Assembly (NCBI GenBank): GCA_017694495.1
Contig: JADIMU010000012.1
Location: forward strand, 1-56,486
Source: Candidatus Aphodenecus pullistercoris
GTDB lineage: Bacteria > Spirochaetota > Spirochaetia > Sphaerochaetales > Sphaerochaetaceae
Length of the DNA: 56,486 nt
Direction: 5' to 3'
Part shown: positions 22,744 to 30,313 of the stretch, piece by piece
Position numbering within the stretch: the stretch's first letter is position 1
Layout of the letters: each line of letters begins with the position of its first letter
Made by a program: the position numbers and the translations under genes
The notes under the pieces: generated by a model
Database searches by the model: none
Told to the model about the DNA's origin: nothing
Seen by the model: the letters and a program-made list of their open reading frames with translations, nothing else

Positions 22744-22841
22744 ACTGTTTTCTCCTTCCAACAATCAGGGAAGATAATGCAAAGGATGGCCTGAGTCCAG
22801 AGGAGGGAAGAGCCAAAACCCTGGTCAGAATGCAATAAAAT

Positions 22842-22869
22842 TTGACAACAAAAAAAAATGGCCTATTCT
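22842..22869 (+). promoter_or_regulatory. strong promoter before the small lipoprotein ORF
   Basis: A consensus TTGACA 22842-22847 and TATTCT 22864-22869 are spaced by 16 bases that include a long A-run. A hairpin follows in the leader (GCCACA 22884-22889 with TGTGGC 22897-22902). Confidence 0.7.
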
Positions 22870-22926
22870 CTAGACCGTATGCGGCCACACGTTGGATGTG
22901 GCAAAAAAACAAGAGAGGGGAATCCT

Positions 22927-23022
22927 ATGAGAAAACTGTCACTCGTGATGCTGACGCTCATCGTCGCATTGTCATTCGTCGCTTGCAAGATCGACACTCC
23001 ATCTTCCAGCCCAGCTACCTAG
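22927..23022 (+). CDS. very short lipoprotein ORF, perhaps truncated by a frameshift
   Basis: This ORF of 31 codons starts at ATG 22927 behind GAGAGGGG. It encodes a complete lipoprotein signal (MRKLSLVMLTLIVALS then FVAC) and about 11 residues after the lipid Cys. It has its own strong promoter and leader hairpin. The next frame stays open past its stop to TAG 23118-23120, and codes for a hydrophobic segment (LLLINVAFWLFDLAQL) plus a charged tail ending in KYGYTIRE. That hints at a longer ancestral protein broken by an indel. Alternatively the short form is a real toxin-entry- or lysis-type lipoprotein; I cannot decide. Confidence 0.5.
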   Translation: MRKLSLVMLTLIVALSFVACKIDTPSSSPAT

Positions 23023-23188
23023 GTCTGCTGCTTATCAATGTCGCTTTCTGGCTCTTTGATTTGGCTCAGTTGAAGGCCAAGAAGTTCACTGACAAGTACG
23101 GTTATACAATCAGGGAGTAGGTTGCCGCTTCCTGTCGACGTTACAATTATCCAGCCTGTATATTGGCCTTGGGTATATTGATTGGAAG

Positions 23189-23220
23189 GGGCACGGAAGC
23201 GAATTCCGTGCCCTCATCTG
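23189..23220 (+). terminator. terminator after the small lipoprotein region
   Basis: GGGCACGGAA 23189-23198 pairs perfectly with TTCCGTGCCC 23204-23213 over a five-base loop. The tail is TCATCTGCTTCTTGC. Confidence 0.7.
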
Positions 23221-23265
23221 CTTCTTGCATTAGCATGAATGTCTTCGTAAGGCCTGCTTGAAGTC

Positions 23266-23295
23266 TTCACAAGTTCTTGAGGACCCCTCTATAAT
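23266..23295 (+). promoter_or_regulatory. promoter of the SPFH operon with inverted repeat around the -10 box
   Basis: TTCACA 23266-23271 is followed after 18 bases by a perfect TATAAT 23290-23295. Transcripts would start close to the ATG at 23317. The inverted repeat TGAGGA 23278-23283 / TCCTCA 23295-23300 brackets the -10 box and could be an operator. Confidence 0.65.
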
Positions 23296-23316
23296 CCTCA
23301 TATTGGGGGGAATGAT

Positions 23317-24519
23317 ATGGCAAAGAATTTCATTGATCTTGTCGAATGGAAGGACATGAGTCCCGCTCTGTTCGCATGGAAGTATCCAGACCACAATCTC
23401 AGTATGGGCACACAGCTCATCGTCCATGAATCGCAGGAGGCGGTCTTCTTCTCGAAGGGCGAGATCGCAGGTGAGTTCGGACCTGGCCGCCACACGCTCA
23501 GCACCGAGAACCTGCCAGTGGTCAGCAAGCTGTTCGGCATACCATTCGGAGGCAGGAATCCTTTCACTGCCGATGTCTGGTTCGTCAACAAGCGCGCTCC
23601 GCTCGACATCGACTGGAGGATCTCGAAGATCATAGTCTCGGATCCTCAGTTCAAATATGTTCCGCTGGTCGCCAGCGGACGCTATGGCCTCAAGGTCGAG
23701 AGCTCGTCGCGCTTCCTGACCGAGCTTGTCGGCACTGTCTCGACCTTCGACAAGAAGCAGATCACAGACCATTTCAGCGCGATGATCGAGCAGTACACAA
23801 AGAATGCGATAGTCGACTTCATCCGCGGCAACAATGTGCCTGTCACAGAGATTGGTGCCAATCTGACGGAAATCGCCAATGCAGTCAGGGCCCAGATGGA
23901 GCCCTTCTGGCAGCGCTACGGACTTGCCCTGCCTGGTTTCTACGTTACGAACGTGGATATCGATGAGAGTGAGCAGATAGGACGCAAGATCATTGAGGCG
24001 ATCGCTTCCAGCTCCGCACAGAGCATAGCAGGATACACCTGGCAACAGCAGCAGGCGATGGACATCGCCAAGAATGCGGTCTCCGGTCCTGGTGGCGACA
24101 TGGGAATCCTCGGAATGGCCATGCTCACCGGCGCCTTCTCCGGCGGCGGTGGCGGTTTTGCCAACCACATGATGCAACCCCCTCAGCAGCCGGGAATGAT
24201 GGGACAGGTGCCGCCTGCCGCCCCTGCGATGGGACAAGGTGCCGCCCGCCCAATGAGGCAGTTCGTCTTCTGTTCCAACTGTGGCAAGAAGTACCCGACG
24301 ACAAGCAAGTTCTGCCCGAACTGTGGCGACAAGTACAATCCATGCCCAGTGTGCGGTGCCGACAACATGGCCAACGCCAAGCGCTGTGTCAGCTGTGGAA
24401 CGGCTCTTGTCAGCAGCCAGGACATGAGCGCCCAGGCCGGATTCGCCTGTCCTTCATGCGGGACACCTGTAAGTCCTGGAACCAAGTTCTGCCCGAACTG
24501 CGGCACGAAGCTTTCCTGA
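23317..24519 (+). CDS. SPFH-domain protein with C-terminal zinc ribbons (YdjI-like)
   Basis: This is a 400-residue protein. Residues about 20-230 form a stomatin/prohibitin-like SPFH domain of the type annotated as virion core protein-like: SMGTQLIVHESQEAVFF, then FGPGRHTLSTENLPV, then EIANAVRAQMEPFWQRYGLALPGFYVTNVDID. A Gly/Met/Pro-rich linker follows to about residue 310. Three zinc-ribbon units end the protein, with pairs CSNCG/CPNCG, CPVCG/CVSCG and CPSCG/CPNCG. There is no signal peptide or strong TM helix, so membrane contact is probably peripheral. In Bacillus subtilis the related YdjI works with PspA-like and TPM proteins at the membrane. Here it is the first gene of a six-gene operon and likely scaffolds the others; that role is inferred. 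Confidence 0.85.
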   Translation: MAKNFIDLVEWKDMSPALFAWKYPDHNLSMGTQLIVHESQEAVFFSKGEIAGEFGPGRHTLSTENLPVVSKLFGIPFGGRNPFTADVWFVNKRAPLDIDWRISKIIVSDPQFKYVPLVASGRYGLKVESSSRFLTELVGTVSTFDKKQITDHFSAMIEQYTKNAIVDFIRGNNVPVTEIGANLTEIANAVRAQMEPFWQRYGLALPGFYVTNVDIDESEQIGRKIIEAIASSSAQSIAGYTWQQQQAMDIAKNAVSGPGGDMGILGMAMLTGAFSGGGGGFANHMMQPPQQPGMMGQVPPAAPAMGQGAARPMRQFVFCSNCGKKYPTTSKFCPNCGDKYNPCPVCGADNMANAKRCVSCGTALVSSQDMSAQAGFACPSCGTPVSPGTKFCPNCGTKLS

Positions 24520-24535
24520 CGGGGGAGGTGGGGAA

Positions 24536-25219
24536 ATGAAGACACGTACCGGCAAAATCTACACTTCGATCATCTACGCCATCATTCTGGCGCTCTATCT
24601 CATACTCTTCATCGCCTTCGTTCCAAGACCGTACAGCAGTCAGAAGACCTTCTTCCTGGTTCTGGTGCCTCTCATCATCCTTGTGAACTATGGCATCAAC
24701 ATGGTTGAAATGAGCTTCAGGCATGTCGAATCGGTTCTGACGACATTCACGGCTTCCGTCATCGTCCAGGCCGCCTATACTGTCCTGTCCCTGCTTCTTG
24801 CGGCAATCCTTGCCGTCGTCGGAGTCTCGATGAAGACTCAGATCGTCATCCAGGTCGTCACCTTCCTTGTGGCGGGAATCGGTTTCGCCGTCACGCTGTT
24901 CACTGCGAGTGCGGCGAAGGATGTGAGGAAGGGCCAGACGAACATCGACAGGAAGGCGATCCTCCGCAAGGACTTTGGCAGCGTGCTTGTCGAGATGGAG
25001 TCGAAGGGCCTTTCAGGAGAAGCCCTCGACAGCCTCAAGTCCCTCGCCGAGGACTACAGGCACATGGCGCCGTGCAACGATCCGTCAGCCATGGCATTGG
25101 AGGATGACATCCATGAAGAGCTGGCGGCCATGGTTGCTGATGGATGCCAGAACGTGGATGCCCACATTTCGAAGATCCGCTTCCTCATGAAGCGTAGAAG
25201 CCTGCTCAAGAGCAGATGA
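24536..25219 (+). CDS. multi-pass membrane protein of the SPFH operon (unrecognised)
   Basis: This is a 227-residue protein with four hydrophobic helices in the first 125 residues (approximately 8-28, 38-56, 69-93 and 98-120). A soluble helical C-terminal part of about 100 residues follows, with charged segments (DVRKGQTNIDRKAILRKDFG, then a Ser/Leu-rich helix). There is no signal peptide cleavage site. It lies 16 bases behind the SPFH gene. I do not recognise the family. The context suggests a membrane anchor for the cytoplasmic partners; the C-terminal helices would face the cytoplasm by the positive-inside rule. Confidence 0.75.
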   Translation: MKTRTGKIYTSIIYAIILALYLILFIAFVPRPYSSQKTFFLVLVPLIILVNYGINMVEMSFRHVESVLTTFTASVIVQAAYTVLSLLLAAILAVVGVSMKTQIVIQVVTFLVAGIGFAVTLFTASAAKDVRKGQTNIDRKAILRKDFGSVLVEMESKGLSGEALDSLKSLAEDYRHMAPCNDPSAMALEDDIHEELAAMVADGCQNVDAHISKIRFLMKRRSLLKSR

Positions 25220-25254
25220 TCACCTGAGACGAACATTAAAAAGGGGGGAGAGAG

Positions 25255-27309
25255 ATGCAAGGACGACTCTACGAGGCTTCGGCAAGCATTTATGATGACG
25301 AGGCCAGAATTCTTTTCGACTACTTCTCGAAGGCTGCTGACGACATCATCAAAAAGGAGGATGAGGTCCATGCCAAGATCGATGGCGCGAAAGAGCAGCT
25401 TGCAGAGCAGGAGAAGGCGAGGAGGGGAACCCGGATCAAGAGTCTGGTCTTCCTTGTCCTGGCAATCGCGCTTTGTGTGTACTGTGCCATCGATTTCGGT
25501 CTGACGACGACCTACACCTACGTTTCCTTCGGCATCATAGCCATAGTCCTGATCGCCGGTCTGGTCGCATGCAATGGCGCCAAGGGCAAGGTGGCCAGCT
25601 GCAAGGCAGAGCTGGCAAGCTGTGAGAAGGACTATGCCGACATAAGACGAGAATACAAGGTGAGCCGGCTGGGCGTCGCCTACGTGCCAATCGCAAAGAA
25701 GGTTCCCTTCGGCAACCAGAACGTCACGGTCGACCTCAGCGGCAGTGTGGACGAAGAGGACTTCGAGCTCGTGACGATGAACGATCCCTCCGCTTTCGAG
25801 GCCGACGCCGACGACTTCAAGAAGGTCTTCGCCTCAGTCCCAGTAGTCGAAGGTGGAGAGGCCAGGGACATCGATACATCCGACTATTCCGTCTCGATGC
25901 AGGAGACGCCAGTCTATGAGTACGTCGACAAGGTCGAGAAGGCGGCGGACCGCCTGAACGACGACCTGACCAATGTCGAGCGCACAAGCGTGTCGATTCC
26001 CATCATCCCGCCCCAGTCGGAGAACATGGCCTTCCTGAAGAACTTCGGCGCCGACGAGACGGGGGATCTGCCTGTAATCGACATTTTCGATACGTCAAGC
26101 ATCGACTCCAGACTCGACATCTTCTACTCGATCTACAAGAACCGCCAGGAGAACCGGAATACGGGCGATGAGAAGGCCCTCGAGAGCCTCATCCGCTTCA
26201 TCGGCGTCAGCACCCAGACCCTGACGACCGCCAAGCTGAACTGCTGTTCGGCGATTCTGGACTACAACAATGGCCTCTTCGCCAACGTGCTCAAGAGCCC
26301 CTACAACAACTACAGCGCCAAGCTTGAGGCCGAGACGATCGACGAGATCCGGGCGATGAACTTCAACTTCGCCGACATGACGGAGACCTACAGACCATTC
26401 AAGTTCAAAGAGAGTTCAATGATGAAGTTCGACCTCTATTCGAACTGCTGGGTCGACGAGACGGGCACCCGCTCCATGCTTCCCTTCTCGATGCACCAGA
26501 TCCAGGTCGACATCTTCATGCCGATCATCAACGCCTTGATGGAGGAGAACCGCATCGAGAGGCGCAAGATCTACGAGAAGGTCCAGGAGCAGAAGCTGGG
26601 CTATCTCAACAAGTGGCACACTGAGACCCAGGACTTCTACGGAAGGAACCGCGACACTGCCGACCAGCTCAAGACCAACATCATCGAGGCGATTTCGACC
26701 TACAACGCCTCCTATGCGACCTGGAAGGCGATCAAGGACACCATCGCGCAGATGGATGCCCAGCAGAGCCTCCTGGGTGGAGAGGTCAAGACCGAGGACA
26801 CCGCCGCCAGCATGGTGCTCTCAGCAGAGCAGGTCAACCAGAACTTCAAGGCGCTCGAGGAGGACTTCGAGTCCTACATGGAGAGGCTCCAGGACGACAT
26901 CGATGAGAAGGCTGACGCCTTCGGTACAGTCACCTTCTTCGAAGCCTACCTCTATGCGAGCGAGGCGCAGAAGGCCGTCAACGCCAACTCGAACATCTCA
27001 AAGATGGGCCCGCGTGAGCTGAAGATCGCGAATGTGAGTCCCTATCTGGCGCAGTATGGCACCATTCCTCCCCAGCCCAGCGTCGAGGATGAGCTGATGC
27101 AATCGCTTGGCATCGACCTCGCGGACGAGGCGGAGGAGCTGATCCGCAGCGTCCATGCGGCAGACGCCGGCGATGTCCCCTACATGGATGAGGAGAGTGT
27201 CGTCGATGTGGATGAAAGCTTGGGGGACGGATTGATTTTCCCTGACGAAGAAGATGTCATCCCGCCTTTCGTGGAGGACGAGAGTGGTGAAGAGGAGGAC
27301 AAGGACTGA
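25255..27309 (+). CDS. large coiled-coil membrane protein of the SPFH operon (unrecognised)
   Basis: This is a 684-residue protein. Residues about 1-58 are a charged helix, probably a coiled coil. Two TM helices form a hairpin at about 60-80 and 88-108, followed by another short coiled coil (CKAELASCEKDYADIRREYK). The rest is a long cytoplasmic region, with helices near 440-580 (NALMEENRIERRKIYEKVQEQ; LEEDFESYMERLQDDIDEKAD). An Asp/Glu-rich tail ends the protein (EDVIPPFVEDESGEEEDKD). The ribosome site is GGGGGGAG. Its stop overlaps the start of the next gene as TGATG. No family is recognised; shape and context suggest a membrane-tethered scaffold. Confidence 0.75.
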   Translation: MQGRLYEASASIYDDEARILFDYFSKAADDIIKKEDEVHAKIDGAKEQLAEQEKARRGTRIKSLVFLVLAIALCVYCAIDFGLTTTYTYVSFGIIAIVLIAGLVACNGAKGKVASCKAELASCEKDYADIRREYKVSRLGVAYVPIAKKVPFGNQNVTVDLSGSVDEEDFELVTMNDPSAFEADADDFKKVFASVPVVEGGEARDIDTSDYSVSMQETPVYEYVDKVEKAADRLNDDLTNVERTSVSIPIIPPQSENMAFLKNFGADETGDLPVIDIFDTSSIDSRLDIFYSIYKNRQENRNTGDEKALESLIRFIGVSTQTLTTAKLNCCSAILDYNNGLFANVLKSPYNNYSAKLEAETIDEIRAMNFNFADMTETYRPFKFKESSMMKFDLYSNCWVDETGTRSMLPFSMHQIQVDIFMPIINALMEENRIERRKIYEKVQEQKLGYLNKWHTETQDFYGRNRDTADQLKTNIIEAISTYNASYATWKAIKDTIAQMDAQQSLLGGEVKTEDTAASMVLSAEQVNQNFKALEEDFESYMERLQDDIDEKADAFGTVTFFEAYLYASEAQKAVNANSNISKMGPRELKIANVSPYLAQYGTIPPQPSVEDELMQSLGIDLADEAEELIRSVHAADAGDVPYMDEESVVDVDESLGDGLIFPDEEDVIPPFVEDESGEEEDKD

Positions 27310-28235
27310 TGGCGAACTTCTACATTGACGTCGGAACCCAGCCTCTTGCCAACTCCGTCGACAGGCTGAGCTCATCGATGAGTCAGGTCGACGCCTCGAT
27401 CAGCGAGATGACGGACCAGCTCGTCCAGGCTGAGAAGATGGCGGCTGAGCACGTCAGCTCGAACGTCACCTACGGCTTCTTCATGCTGACGCGCAACCAG
27501 TTCTCTCAGAAGGCCATCGCAATCGAGAAGGAGATCGCGACGACGCTGGTGAAGATCCAGACCTACTCGAAGAGCCTTGCGGACATCAAGGGGCGCATGG
27601 AGAAGGACTACAACAACATCTCGCAGCAATACCTCAAAATCTTCCGGAACATCGACAGCGCTTTGCGCAAGTCCGTCAACGACCTTGACAAGGGGCTGGT
27701 CGACGTGGCCGTCGTCGCCCGTGGGAAGATGAACGAGAGGCGCATAGACTCATCCATGAAGGCGGTGGCCTATCCGCAGTGCCTTCTGCCCCTTGCCCAG
27801 TCGATGCCACTGGCGAAGCTCAAGAAGGAATGCCGGAGGCTGATCAAGGCCATGACCGATTTCATCGGCAGTCAGCGTGAGTTGACTGGAAAGCTCAACG
27901 CCTCGATTTCCCACGAGAAGGTGGAGGAGGGCGACGAGACGGTCTACTTCCCCGTCGTACTCTTCGAGTCTGAGAGCACTGTCGCTCCCGGCAGCTTCAT
28001 GACCGAAGTCAGGATGCCCGCCTTCCCCAGCACCCTTGCAAGTCTGGATGGAACCGTCGCCTCAAAGACGATAGACATGAAGGGCAAGGATGAACTTTGG
28101 CGCAAGAGCGACGAGGCCTCGCGCCGCCTCATCCTCGACAAACTTACAAGCCTGTGCGAGGGACTGGACCAGCGCAAGGCTTCAATCGTCCTGAACCTTG
28201 CATCGAAGAGCGAGTGGATGGAGCTGAGGGACTAG
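27309..28235 (+). CDS. helical protein of the SPFH operon, paralogue 1 (unrecognised)
   Basis: This is a 308-residue soluble, mostly helical protein without signal or TM segments. Residues about 14-135 form heptad-rich helices (SSMSQVDASISEMTDQL; IEKEIATTLVKIQTYSKSLADIKGRMEKDY; ISQQYLKIFRNIDSALRKSVNDLDKGL). The region LPLAQSMPLAKLKKECRRLIKAM and a strand-rich part (VYFPVVLFESESTV) follow, then a last helix. The block TLVKIQTY...KGRMEKDYNNISQQYLKIFRNID matches the same block in the next gene closely, so the two are paralogues. It overlaps the preceding stop by one base. I recognise no family. Confidence 0.75.
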   Translation: MANFYIDVGTQPLANSVDRLSSSMSQVDASISEMTDQLVQAEKMAAEHVSSNVTYGFFMLTRNQFSQKAIAIEKEIATTLVKIQTYSKSLADIKGRMEKDYNNISQQYLKIFRNIDSALRKSVNDLDKGLVDVAVVARGKMNERRIDSSMKAVAYPQCLLPLAQSMPLAKLKKECRRLIKAMTDFIGSQRELTGKLNASISHEKVEEGDETVYFPVVLFESESTVAPGSFMTEVRMPAFPSTLASLDGTVASKTIDMKGKDELWRKSDEASRRLILDKLTSLCEGLDQRKASIVLNLASKSEWMELRD

Positions 28236-28238
28236 CCT

Positions 28239-29258
28239 ATGCCGTATACATTCACAGTGAACAGTGAGGTTGTGGTCCACGAGAGGGTAAGCATCCCGGC
28301 CAGTGAGCACAGCAGTTCAAAGGTGGTCACAATCAGGGAGCCTGTGTCAATCCATGTGACGGTTGACGATACCGCCTTCAACAGCTCCGTCATGGCCTGT
28401 GATGCGCGCATCGATTCGGTGAACGACAGCGTCGTCGACTCAGTGCGCCGCCAGAGCGAGGCGAAGAAGGAGAGCGCGAAGGTCATAAGCAAGAGCGTTC
28501 TGGACGGCTTCTACAAGTATGCCGCCTCGGATTTCCGCCAGCAGATGGTCGAACATGAGAATGTGGTCAACTCCACATTGCCCAAGATCCAGACCTATAT
28601 GGCCCAGCTTCAGGATCTCAAACGTAGGATGGAGAGCGACTACAACCTGATCTCCAAGCGTTATGTGGGCATATTCAAGGGCTATGACGAGGAGCTGGAC
28701 CGGAACATGCATCGCCTCTACGACCCACTCTTCGAGCTTTATGACGACTGCCAGACGAAGCTTCTGGTCGAAAGCCGCACAGAGGCGCTTTCCGCCTCGA
28801 TCGGCTTCGAGGACATTTCGACGGTCCAGGCCATGATGGTCCAGGCGAAGCTCAAGACGACGCTCCTTTCGGTCATGAGGCGCCTCACCGCCTCCCTCGC
28901 CTCGAGGCGGAGGATAGACCAGAGCCTCGAGCGCCTCGCCGAGAACAGGGTCGTGCCGAAGCCTGTCACCTGCCATCTTCCTCTGGTCTATTTCGAGCGG
29001 GACTCCCTCCTGGACGGCGGCAGGAAAGAAGATGAGGTCCATCTGAACCTCGATGGGGACGGGGCGCGGAGCCGCGCTCTGGCACAGAGGGCGAAGGAAT
29101 GCATCATTGCAGGCGGACTCGAGGTCGACAACAGCGCAAAGGACGACGAGAGGATGGATCTCGACTTCATGGCGAGGCTGTCACAGGTGGGCGACGAGAG
29201 GAGGGCCCGCGAGATCCTCAGGCTCTATGACGATTACAAGAAGAGGAGGAAGGCATGA
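28239..29258 (+). CDS. helical protein of the SPFH operon, paralogue 2 (unrecognised)
   Basis: This is a 339-residue soluble protein. It begins with a strand-rich region of about 50 residues (MPYTFTVNSEVVVHERVSIP, then VVTIREPVSIHVTV) that its paralogue lacks. The helical core matches the preceding gene (NSTLPKIQTYMAQLQDLKRRMESDYNLISKRYVGIFKGYDEEL), then HLPLVYFERDSLLD echoes its strand-rich part. The C-terminus is a charged helix ending KKRRKA. It lies 3 bases after the preceding stop and overlaps the next gene by 4 bases (ATGA). The duplication and the fused strand-rich start suggest a heteromeric pair. The function is unknown. Confidence 0.75.
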   Translation: MPYTFTVNSEVVVHERVSIPASEHSSSKVVTIREPVSIHVTVDDTAFNSSVMACDARIDSVNDSVVDSVRRQSEAKKESAKVISKSVLDGFYKYAASDFRQQMVEHENVVNSTLPKIQTYMAQLQDLKRRMESDYNLISKRYVGIFKGYDEELDRNMHRLYDPLFELYDDCQTKLLVESRTEALSASIGFEDISTVQAMMVQAKLKTTLLSVMRRLTASLASRRRIDQSLERLAENRVVPKPVTCHLPLVYFERDSLLDGGRKEDEVHLNLDGDGARSRALAQRAKECIIAGGLEVDNSAKDDERMDLDFMARLSQVGDERRAREILRLYDDYKKRRKA

Positions 29259-30235
29259 AGAGCGAGCTCAATGAAATCAGGGTGGACAGCAAGGATCTGA
29301 TCCTCAGGGAGAACAAGGTCACATCCCCGATACTCCCCCAGACCACCGAGCAGCTGAAGCGCTCAGTCATCATCGAAGGGGATGTCGAGGTCTTCGGGCC
29401 CGTCTATGGCGACAAGGTACTGGTCCATCATGGACCTGTCAGTTTCTTCAAGTCGGTTTTTGGCAAGGAGGAGCTGGTCGTGGACCCCTCCGCCGAGGGA
29501 GATGTCATCTTCCACAATGCAGTAGGCTCCGGGCAGGTCGTCTCCGCGGCGGCGAGCAAGGGCAGGACTGTCTTCGCAAGCGATGTGAATGCGACGCGCG
29601 TGACGCTGCGCAACTGTTTCGTGGGAGGTTGCGTCTATGGTGACGAGATCATCCTCGACCATTGCGTCGTGCTTGGGGGCGCCTTCGCGACCAAGAGCCT
29701 TTCGGTCAACCACTCCATCGTAGGCACCTTCAACAGCCAGAGCGTCTCGATCGAGGGAATGAACTATCTGCTCTATCCCTCAGCCTTCAGCGTGGAGCCG
29801 GTCGAGGCCGCCTCGACGGCCGAGCTGTACAACATAACTCTGGCGGACCTGATGGGCCTCTTCAAGGGCGAGGAGCAGAAGGATGCCACCGGACGCATCC
29901 GCATCGACCTCAAGGGAGATGCCCAGAGGGCCAACCTCAAGGCGGACGACGGCTCAATCATCCTTGTGCACAGCTACTCTGTGGCCGGCAAGGTCCTCGT
30001 GGCCGACATGTCTGACTTCGAGAAGCTTGGCAACCACTTCCTGATCAACGCAGGAGCCCTGTCGAGCCAACTGATGAAGGACTACGAGGTGACGGACGCG
30101 CAAGGGCAGGAGAGGAAGCTTTCCCTGGAGGAGATCCGGGACTTCTTCTTCAAGGTCCTGGATGGTGAGGTGGAGATCCGGATGATGGACAGCGACATCG
30201 ACTTCGAGGAGATGAAACGCAAGTTCGGACATTGA
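29255..30235 (+). CDS. beta-repeat (bactofilin-like) protein closing the SPFH operon
   Basis: This is a 326-residue protein. After a short charged lead-in, residues about 30-170 show successive short beta strands with Gly turns in which V, I, L and G recur at near-fixed spacing (SVIIEGDVEVFGPVYGDKVLVHHG; GDVIFHNAVGSGQVVSAA; RVTLRNCFVGGCVYGDEIILDHCVVLGGAFA; SLSVNHSIVGTFNSQSVSIEG). This fits a beta-helix, as in bactofilins or polymer-forming cytoskeletal proteins; I see no exact family match. The C-terminal 150 residues are mixed and end with a helical, acidic segment. No signal peptide is present, so it is cytoplasmic. It shares 4 bases with the preceding gene and is followed by a terminator. 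Confidence 0.7.
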   Translation: MKSELNEIRVDSKDLILRENKVTSPILPQTTEQLKRSVIIEGDVEVFGPVYGDKVLVHHGPVSFFKSVFGKEELVVDPSAEGDVIFHNAVGSGQVVSAAASKGRTVFASDVNATRVTLRNCFVGGCVYGDEIILDHCVVLGGAFATKSLSVNHSIVGTFNSQSVSIEGMNYLLYPSAFSVEPVEAASTAELYNITLADLMGLFKGEEQKDATGRIRIDLKGDAQRANLKADDGSIILVHSYSVAGKVLVADMSDFEKLGNHFLINAGALSSQLMKDYEVTDAQGQERKLSLEEIRDFFFKVLDGEVEIRMMDSDIDFEEMKRKFGH

Positions 30236-30245
30236 CACGCAGGGA

Positions 30246-30292
30246 CTGGGGCAGGGCAGGGAGCACGCCTGTCATGCCCCAGACGTATCTTT
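30246..30292 (+). terminator. terminator closing the SPFH operon
   Basis: CTGGGGCA 30246-30253 pairs with TGCCCCAG 30275-30282, and the inner GGCAGG/CCTGTC extends the stem to about 14 pairs with one G-U. The tail GACGTATCTTTC is partly T-rich. Confidence 0.7.
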
Positions 30293-30313
30293 CAGGAAGG
30301 CAAAAAATTAGTG

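Follow-up and report, generated by a model that had tools for sequence, protein, structure and literature searches.

A Strictly Syntenic Six-Gene SPFH Operon in Several Bacterial Phyla and Its Possible Role as a Membrane-Attached Scaffold

A six-gene operon headed by an SPFH protein gene is present in a 56,486-nucleotide stretch of DNA from Candidatus Aphodenecus pullistercoris (the window), and the operon is spread over at least four phyla. Gene 1 belongs to a known family, while the four-gene core (genes 3–6) belongs to no known kind found here. Searches of genes 2–6 against Pfam, NCBIfam, and PADLOC returned no family, leaving gene 1 as the only assigned member, in agreement with the original prediction, in which five of the six families were called unfamiliar. 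We lean, at slightly less than an even chance, toward the view that the operon products may build a scaffold along the cytoplasmic side of the inner membrane, similar to the PspA-YdjGHI system but working without PspA. A strictly syntenic six-gene system that occurs in several phyla and includes five unannotated proteins would represent new bacterial membrane cell biology, and the operon ties the widespread, poorly understood SPFH proteins to a new putative scaffold core and to TIR proteins.

The coordinates of the operon and related features are collected in Table 1. All six open reading frames lie on one strand and are separated, from gene 1 to gene 6, by 16, 35, -1, 3, and -4 bases, matching exactly the arrangement described in the original prediction. 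Of the promoter and terminator also proposed there, the terminator stands only in part. A promoter-like site with 11 of 12 consensus matches does precede gene 1, but six such sites were found in the region compared with 3.9 expected, which is not far above chance. A stable hairpin (8 + 6 pairs, ~-27 kcal/mol) is located directly 3' of gene 6, but it lacks a T-run and was not called in a terminator scan. A search of Rfam returned nothing. The segment that carries the operon also contains, at 22929-23021, an open reading frame of only ~30 residues with a lipoprotein-like signal peptide and lipobox (LSFVAC), which is probably a gene remnant.

Table 1. Positions of the operon genes, flanking features, and related TIR cassettes (window numbering unless a locus is named).
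Feature	Position	Strand	Description
Gene 1	23317..24519	+	SPFH (Band_7_1), three C-terminal zinc ribbons, 400 aa
Gene 2	24536..25219	+	Four-TM protein, cytoplasmic C-terminal motif, 227 aa, no family
Gene 3	25255..27309	+	Membrane-anchored helical protein, acidic tail, 684 aa, no family
Gene 4	27309..28235	+	Helical rod protein, predicted helix of ~140 residues, 308 aa, no family
Gene 5	28239..29258	+	Gene 4 paralogue, extra N-terminal segment, 339 aa, no family
Gene 6	29255..30235	+	Predicted beta-solenoid and C-terminal domain, 326 aa, no family for window sequence
Sigma-70-type promoter-like site, TTCACA-18-TATAAT	23266..23295	+	Consensus match only, 11/12
Strong hairpin without T-run after gene 6	30246..30282	+	
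Segment missing in sister species	~22760..30300 (borders approximate)	no strand	Operon and ~0.5 kb upstream
TIR sister cassette	L100:8849-14293; L101:5168-10229; L103:3875-8939; L104:873-4203	SPFH and 4TM genes adjacent, one strand	In relatives of the window organism

The conservation of the operon has been probed using a profile of gene 3, which identified 124 confirmed relatives in a scan of 84,980 species. Eighty of these loci were fetched and, combined with the window, gave a set of 81 distinct loci that was read with family HMMs (three earlier loci were re-finds). The whole operon is present in one order at 63 of the 81 loci, while 12 loci are cut by contig ends and six (L038, L041, L055, L063, L068, and L081) contain genes 3–6 without genes 1–2, with an unrelated gene upstream instead; at L063 and L068 the contig also stops within gene 4. 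No other gene order was observed in the 81 loci, and every incomplete locus either runs off its contig or is short of genes 1–2 alone, a recurrence that goes beyond chance and is consistent with the co-inheritance of a single operon. Homologues that never occur together had been named beforehand as one form of counter-evidence to the original prediction; what was found is all six genes, in order, at most loci. The majority of the loci belong to Bacteroidota, with others in Spirochaetota, Acidobacteriota, Ignavibacteriota, and two rumen bins labelled Actinomycetota, and named holders include Barnesiella sp. An55, Prevotella sp. P5-50, Treponema zioleckii, and Labilibaculum filiforme. The two rumen bins, labelled Olsenella/actinobacterium (L023 and L026), may reflect transfer or a binning error.

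Pairwise distances co-vary between the six genes (r 0.79-0.97 across 52 six-gene loci, compared with a permutation maximum of 0.31), with the tightest correlations among genes 3–6 (0.92-0.97) and the loosest for gene 1. The Ka/Ks values of all six genes are well below 1 (mostly 0.02-0.2), indicating purifying selection. Together, the distance correlations and purifying selection indicate that genes 3–6 form the core of the system and that genes 1–2 are a closely attached pair.

The operon is rare. Three of 247 spirochaete genomes contain gene 3, compared with 0 of the 295 other Bacteroidota genomes sampled, and genes 4 and 5 were detected in 9 of 393 spirochaetes, always as a pair. Single-sequence searches at the phylum and family levels identified only a handful of genomes, each with the complete operon in unchanged order and with flanks that are unrelated between genomes. 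Gene 6 was found as a single copy in 15 of the 16 genomes that were tested (the contig of the 16th ends inside the operon). Within the window genus, only the window genome contains the operon. At least seven sister genomes have the TSCPD-like gene, which borders the insert on its left in the window, at ~60-200 bp from the tuf promoter; the flanks thus stand side by side, indicating that the operon is gained or lost as a unit. The 7.5-kb segment (~22.76-30.30 kb) was either inserted in the window lineage or lost precisely from the others. A search for mobile-element ends revealed no transposon ends, and its only candidate, a 9-bp repeat (GGCAAAAAA) at 22900 and 30299, is at chance level and was rejected. 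Location within a defence island was also considered and is unsupported, as the neighbours show no enrichment in defence genes.

Gene 1 matches PF13421 with an E value of 3.4e-44 (151 bits; cut-off 24), and the 12 cysteines of its zinc ribbons are conserved at 97-100% in 71 relatives, bearing out the description of gene 1 as an SPFH protein with three zinc ribbons. A TM segment is absent in 67 of the 71 relatives. Considered together, the family match, the C-terminal zinc ribbons, and the lack of a TM segment place gene 1, on sequence grounds, in the SPFH Band_7_1 class that includes Bacillus YdjI, as had been proposed; matches to PF13421 also occur in B. subtilis. Flotillins and HflKC share the SPFH domain with gene 1; however, gene 1 lacks their N-terminal TM anchor, possesses zinc ribbons, and has different partners. 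Gene 2 is a four-TM protein as predicted; 65 of 70 relatives show four hydrophobic segments, and the protein has a C-terminal motif with the consensus RYxSP/RYSDPVSS (YRHMAPCNDPS in the window protein). A family-profile search of the PDB with gene 2 returned only generic TM or coiled-coil matches.

A sister cassette bears on the role of genes 1–2. Eleven further genomes of the family sample, none with a detected operon, carry PF13421 SPFH genes. In four of these (L100, L101, L103, and L104), a three-gene cassette encodes an SPFH-zinc ribbon protein, a 4TM relative of gene 2, and a zinc-ribbon/TPR/TIR_2 protein. A search with six models gave matches of the gene-2 profile to two of the cassette 4TM proteins (E 2e-13 and 3e-7), and an RYSDPVSS-type motif, which corresponds to RYxSP in the operon, is present in 4/4. 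Among 101 genomes, the cassette TIR protein occurs in exactly these four, always beside the SPFH gene, and in none of the operon holders in that sample. The cassette thus shares relatives of genes 1 and 2 with the operon but differs in that the TIR_2/TPR protein replaces genes 3–6. Because relatives of genes 1 and 2 are paired with a TIR protein in the cassette, genes 1–2 look like a membrane platform with exchangeable partners and outputs. The cassette itself is possibly an undescribed TIR system.

The gene 3 protein of the window contains a TM hairpin made up of residues 61-79 and 88-106. The predicted hairpin is present in most spirochaetes, in the Acidobacteria, and in one Ignavibacteria copy, but it does not hold throughout the family, as many Bacteroidota copies contain a shorter hydrophobic stretch instead. 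Since positive residues flank the hairpin on both sides, the long C-terminal part of the protein is probably cytoplasmic; a signal peptide-like start is absent from genes 1, 3, 4, 5, and 6. The tails of gene 3 proteins carry, at their ends, acidic linkers with plug-in domains, which include L7/L12 C-terminal-type domains in 4 of 47 and zinc ribbons at L040 and L057. L7/L12-type domains on long acidic linkers at gene 3 tails, in a non-ribosomal protein, were noted at L030, L032, L039, L051, L067, L074, and L077. The AlphaFold2 model of gene 3 is weak (mean pLDDT 69.5), and comparison of this model using VIA-align returned only generic helical hairpins (Z ~10-12, the noise range for helical models). 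Sequence searches of the PDB with family profiles of genes 3, 4/5, and 6 identified no relatives.

Homology between genes 4 and 5 extends across almost the full length of both (hhalign E 3e-58), in line with their description as two paralogous helical proteins, and no homology of gene 2 or gene 3 to genes 4/5 was found. The AlphaFold2 model of gene 4 contains a straight helix (residues 11-151) with high local confidence and then continues with another helix and a small mixed domain. The model has a pTM of 0.31 and no clear fold relative in the PDB (Foldseek/VIA), and the PspA/ESCRT-III fold is not among the matches listed. Among 81 relatives of genes 4/5, eight match PF10635, the DisA linker profile, with a best E value of 4e-5, which is perhaps a helical resemblance only.

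The regularly repeated short strands described for gene 6 are reflected in a hydrophobic period of 5.5 residues over residues 31-185 (p ~0.011) and in internal repeats, a pattern resembling that of a beta-solenoid. The further suggestion of a bactofilin-like beta helix fares less well. Similar to bactofilins (PF04519), gene 6 has a solenoid-like periodicity and no signal peptide, and 36 of 60 relatives weakly match Pfam Bactofilin (E<=0.05; best 4.9e-5). In contrast to bactofilins, the gene 6 protein is larger and contains a C-terminal domain, and the window protein has no match to Pfam Bactofilin at E<=1. Furthermore, hhalign comparison of the gene 6 profile with 20 true bactofilins gave a probability of 1.8%, which does not exceed the value of 15.7% obtained for a reversed gene 6 control, and most hosts carry true bactofilins separately (15 of 20 operon holders). 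The name bactofilin is consequently best avoided, and "bactofilin-like" denotes a fold-class resemblance only. At L031, gene 6 ends in a zinc ribbon, and extra downstream genes with GYF_2 or zinc-ribbon domains are present at ~10 loci. The recurrence of zinc ribbons on gene 3 tails, gene 6, and neighbouring genes suggests one shared assembly.

The closest known system for comparison is PspA-YdjGHI of Bacillus subtilis, which, like the operon, combines a TM-less SPFH protein with C-terminal zinc binding (YdjI), membrane proteins, and a membrane-acting partner (PMC8581546). YdjI, which possesses a zinc-finger motif, requires YdjG/H to place the ESCRT-III relative PspA on the membrane, where these proteins influence fluidity (PMC8581546). 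In contrast to PspA-YdjGHI, none of the six genes encodes PspA, and genes 3–6 have no counterpart. Of 20 operon holders, only eight contain PspA, with none found in the other 12; the window genome contains two PspA genes, both on other contigs. As PspA is neither part of the operon nor found in those 12 holders, the operon falls outside the PspA-YdjGHI system but may work like it.

No description of the operon, and hence no close match to a described operon of the kind listed beforehand as counter-evidence, was found in the open-access literature, with subscription papers, which may hold one, lying outside the search. Of the 5.39 million open-access papers covered, none combines SPFH proteins with bactofilins; the searches also yielded none that connects SPFH proteins with anti-phage defence, and only a domain paper for the combination of SPFH, SHOCT, and zinc ribbon.

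In the reading that we favour, the operon would encode a single portable assembly attached to the inner membrane on its cytoplasmic side, with genes 2 and 3 serving as the membrane anchors. An SPFH oligomer of gene 1 would dock on gene 2, and its zinc ribbons would be heads that act as adaptors or bind clients. Genes 4 and 5 would form long paired helical rods, with which the gene 6 beta-solenoid would pack or polymerise. Genes 3–6 would then constitute an obligate core and genes 1–2 an exchangeable platform, paired elsewhere with the TIR protein, so that the assembly would work in a PspA-YdjGHI-like manner, in which an SPFH/zinc protein and its two membrane partners bring a polymer-forming effector to stressed membrane, but with a different effector core. 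The 140-residue helix modelled for gene 4 and the solenoid periodicity of gene 6 would suit such a scaffold. The operon products may form a complex and polymerise, and by analogy with PspA-YdjGHI the operon may have a role in stress protection. What counts against a stress scaffold is the absence of PspA from the operon and its presence in only 8 of 20 holders, the weak model of gene 3 and the low pTM and lack of a fold match of gene 4, and the rare, patchy distribution, which is unusual for a housekeeping stress system. A broader proposal, about which we are more doubtful, is that genes 3–6 represent a new class of polymer or scaffold machine that lies in the cytoplasm and is attached to the membrane. 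The SPFH-ZnR/4TM pair would then be a general bacterial membrane-sensing platform with plug-in outputs, the scaffold in some lineages and a TIR effector in others.

Given the patchy distribution and the TIR cassette, the strongest rival to the scaffold is a role in conflict with phages or competitors, wherein genes 1–2 sense membrane perturbation and genes 3–6 respond as the cassette TIR protein would. TIR domains are known immune effectors, and the presence or absence of the operon as a block between sister species, together with the link in the cassette between SPFH-ZnR, a gene-2 relative, and a TIR/TPR/zinc-ribbon protein (with 4/4 TIR genes beside SPFH), is favourable to such a role. However, PADLOC gave no family-covering match for any of the six genes (best E 4e-4 to 1e-3, to the ZorA coiled-coil tail only), genes 3–6 lack an enzymatic effector domain, and the neighbours are not enriched in defence genes. 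Additionally, no copies of the tested core genes were found in plasmids, phages, or viral contigs, and selection is strongly purifying, with slow, largely phylum-wise divergence. A conflict role is consequently judged unlikely, though with a real share of the probability.

The remaining rivals are structural. It is quite improbable that the operon encodes another kind of machine, such as a compartment or a complex for secretion or linked to DNA, in which an SPFH subunit is simply one of the parts. The four core genes make up three families without relatives, and the paired long-helix proteins and the gene 3 tails with their L7/L12-type or zinc-ribbon heads would fit this idea, but none of the genes encodes a secretin, ATPase, portal, shell, or nuclease domain. 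Very unlikely, in our view, is a system that organises cell shape or the cell wall, with gene 6 acting as a bactofilin that recruits wall enzymes via the membrane proteins. Bactofilins are known to organise wall growth in spirochaetes (PMC13393453), and the weak Pfam matches among gene 6 relatives point in this direction; yet the window protein has no such match, the profile comparison falls below its reversed control, true bactofilins are encoded elsewhere in most operon genomes, wall enzymes are absent from the operon, and its hosts are scattered. Plasmids do carry SPFH genes on their own, next to other partners; in examples from Butyrivibrio and Bacteroides (L153 and L154), SPFH-domain genes are followed by hypothetical or zinc-ribbon genes as further partner variants.
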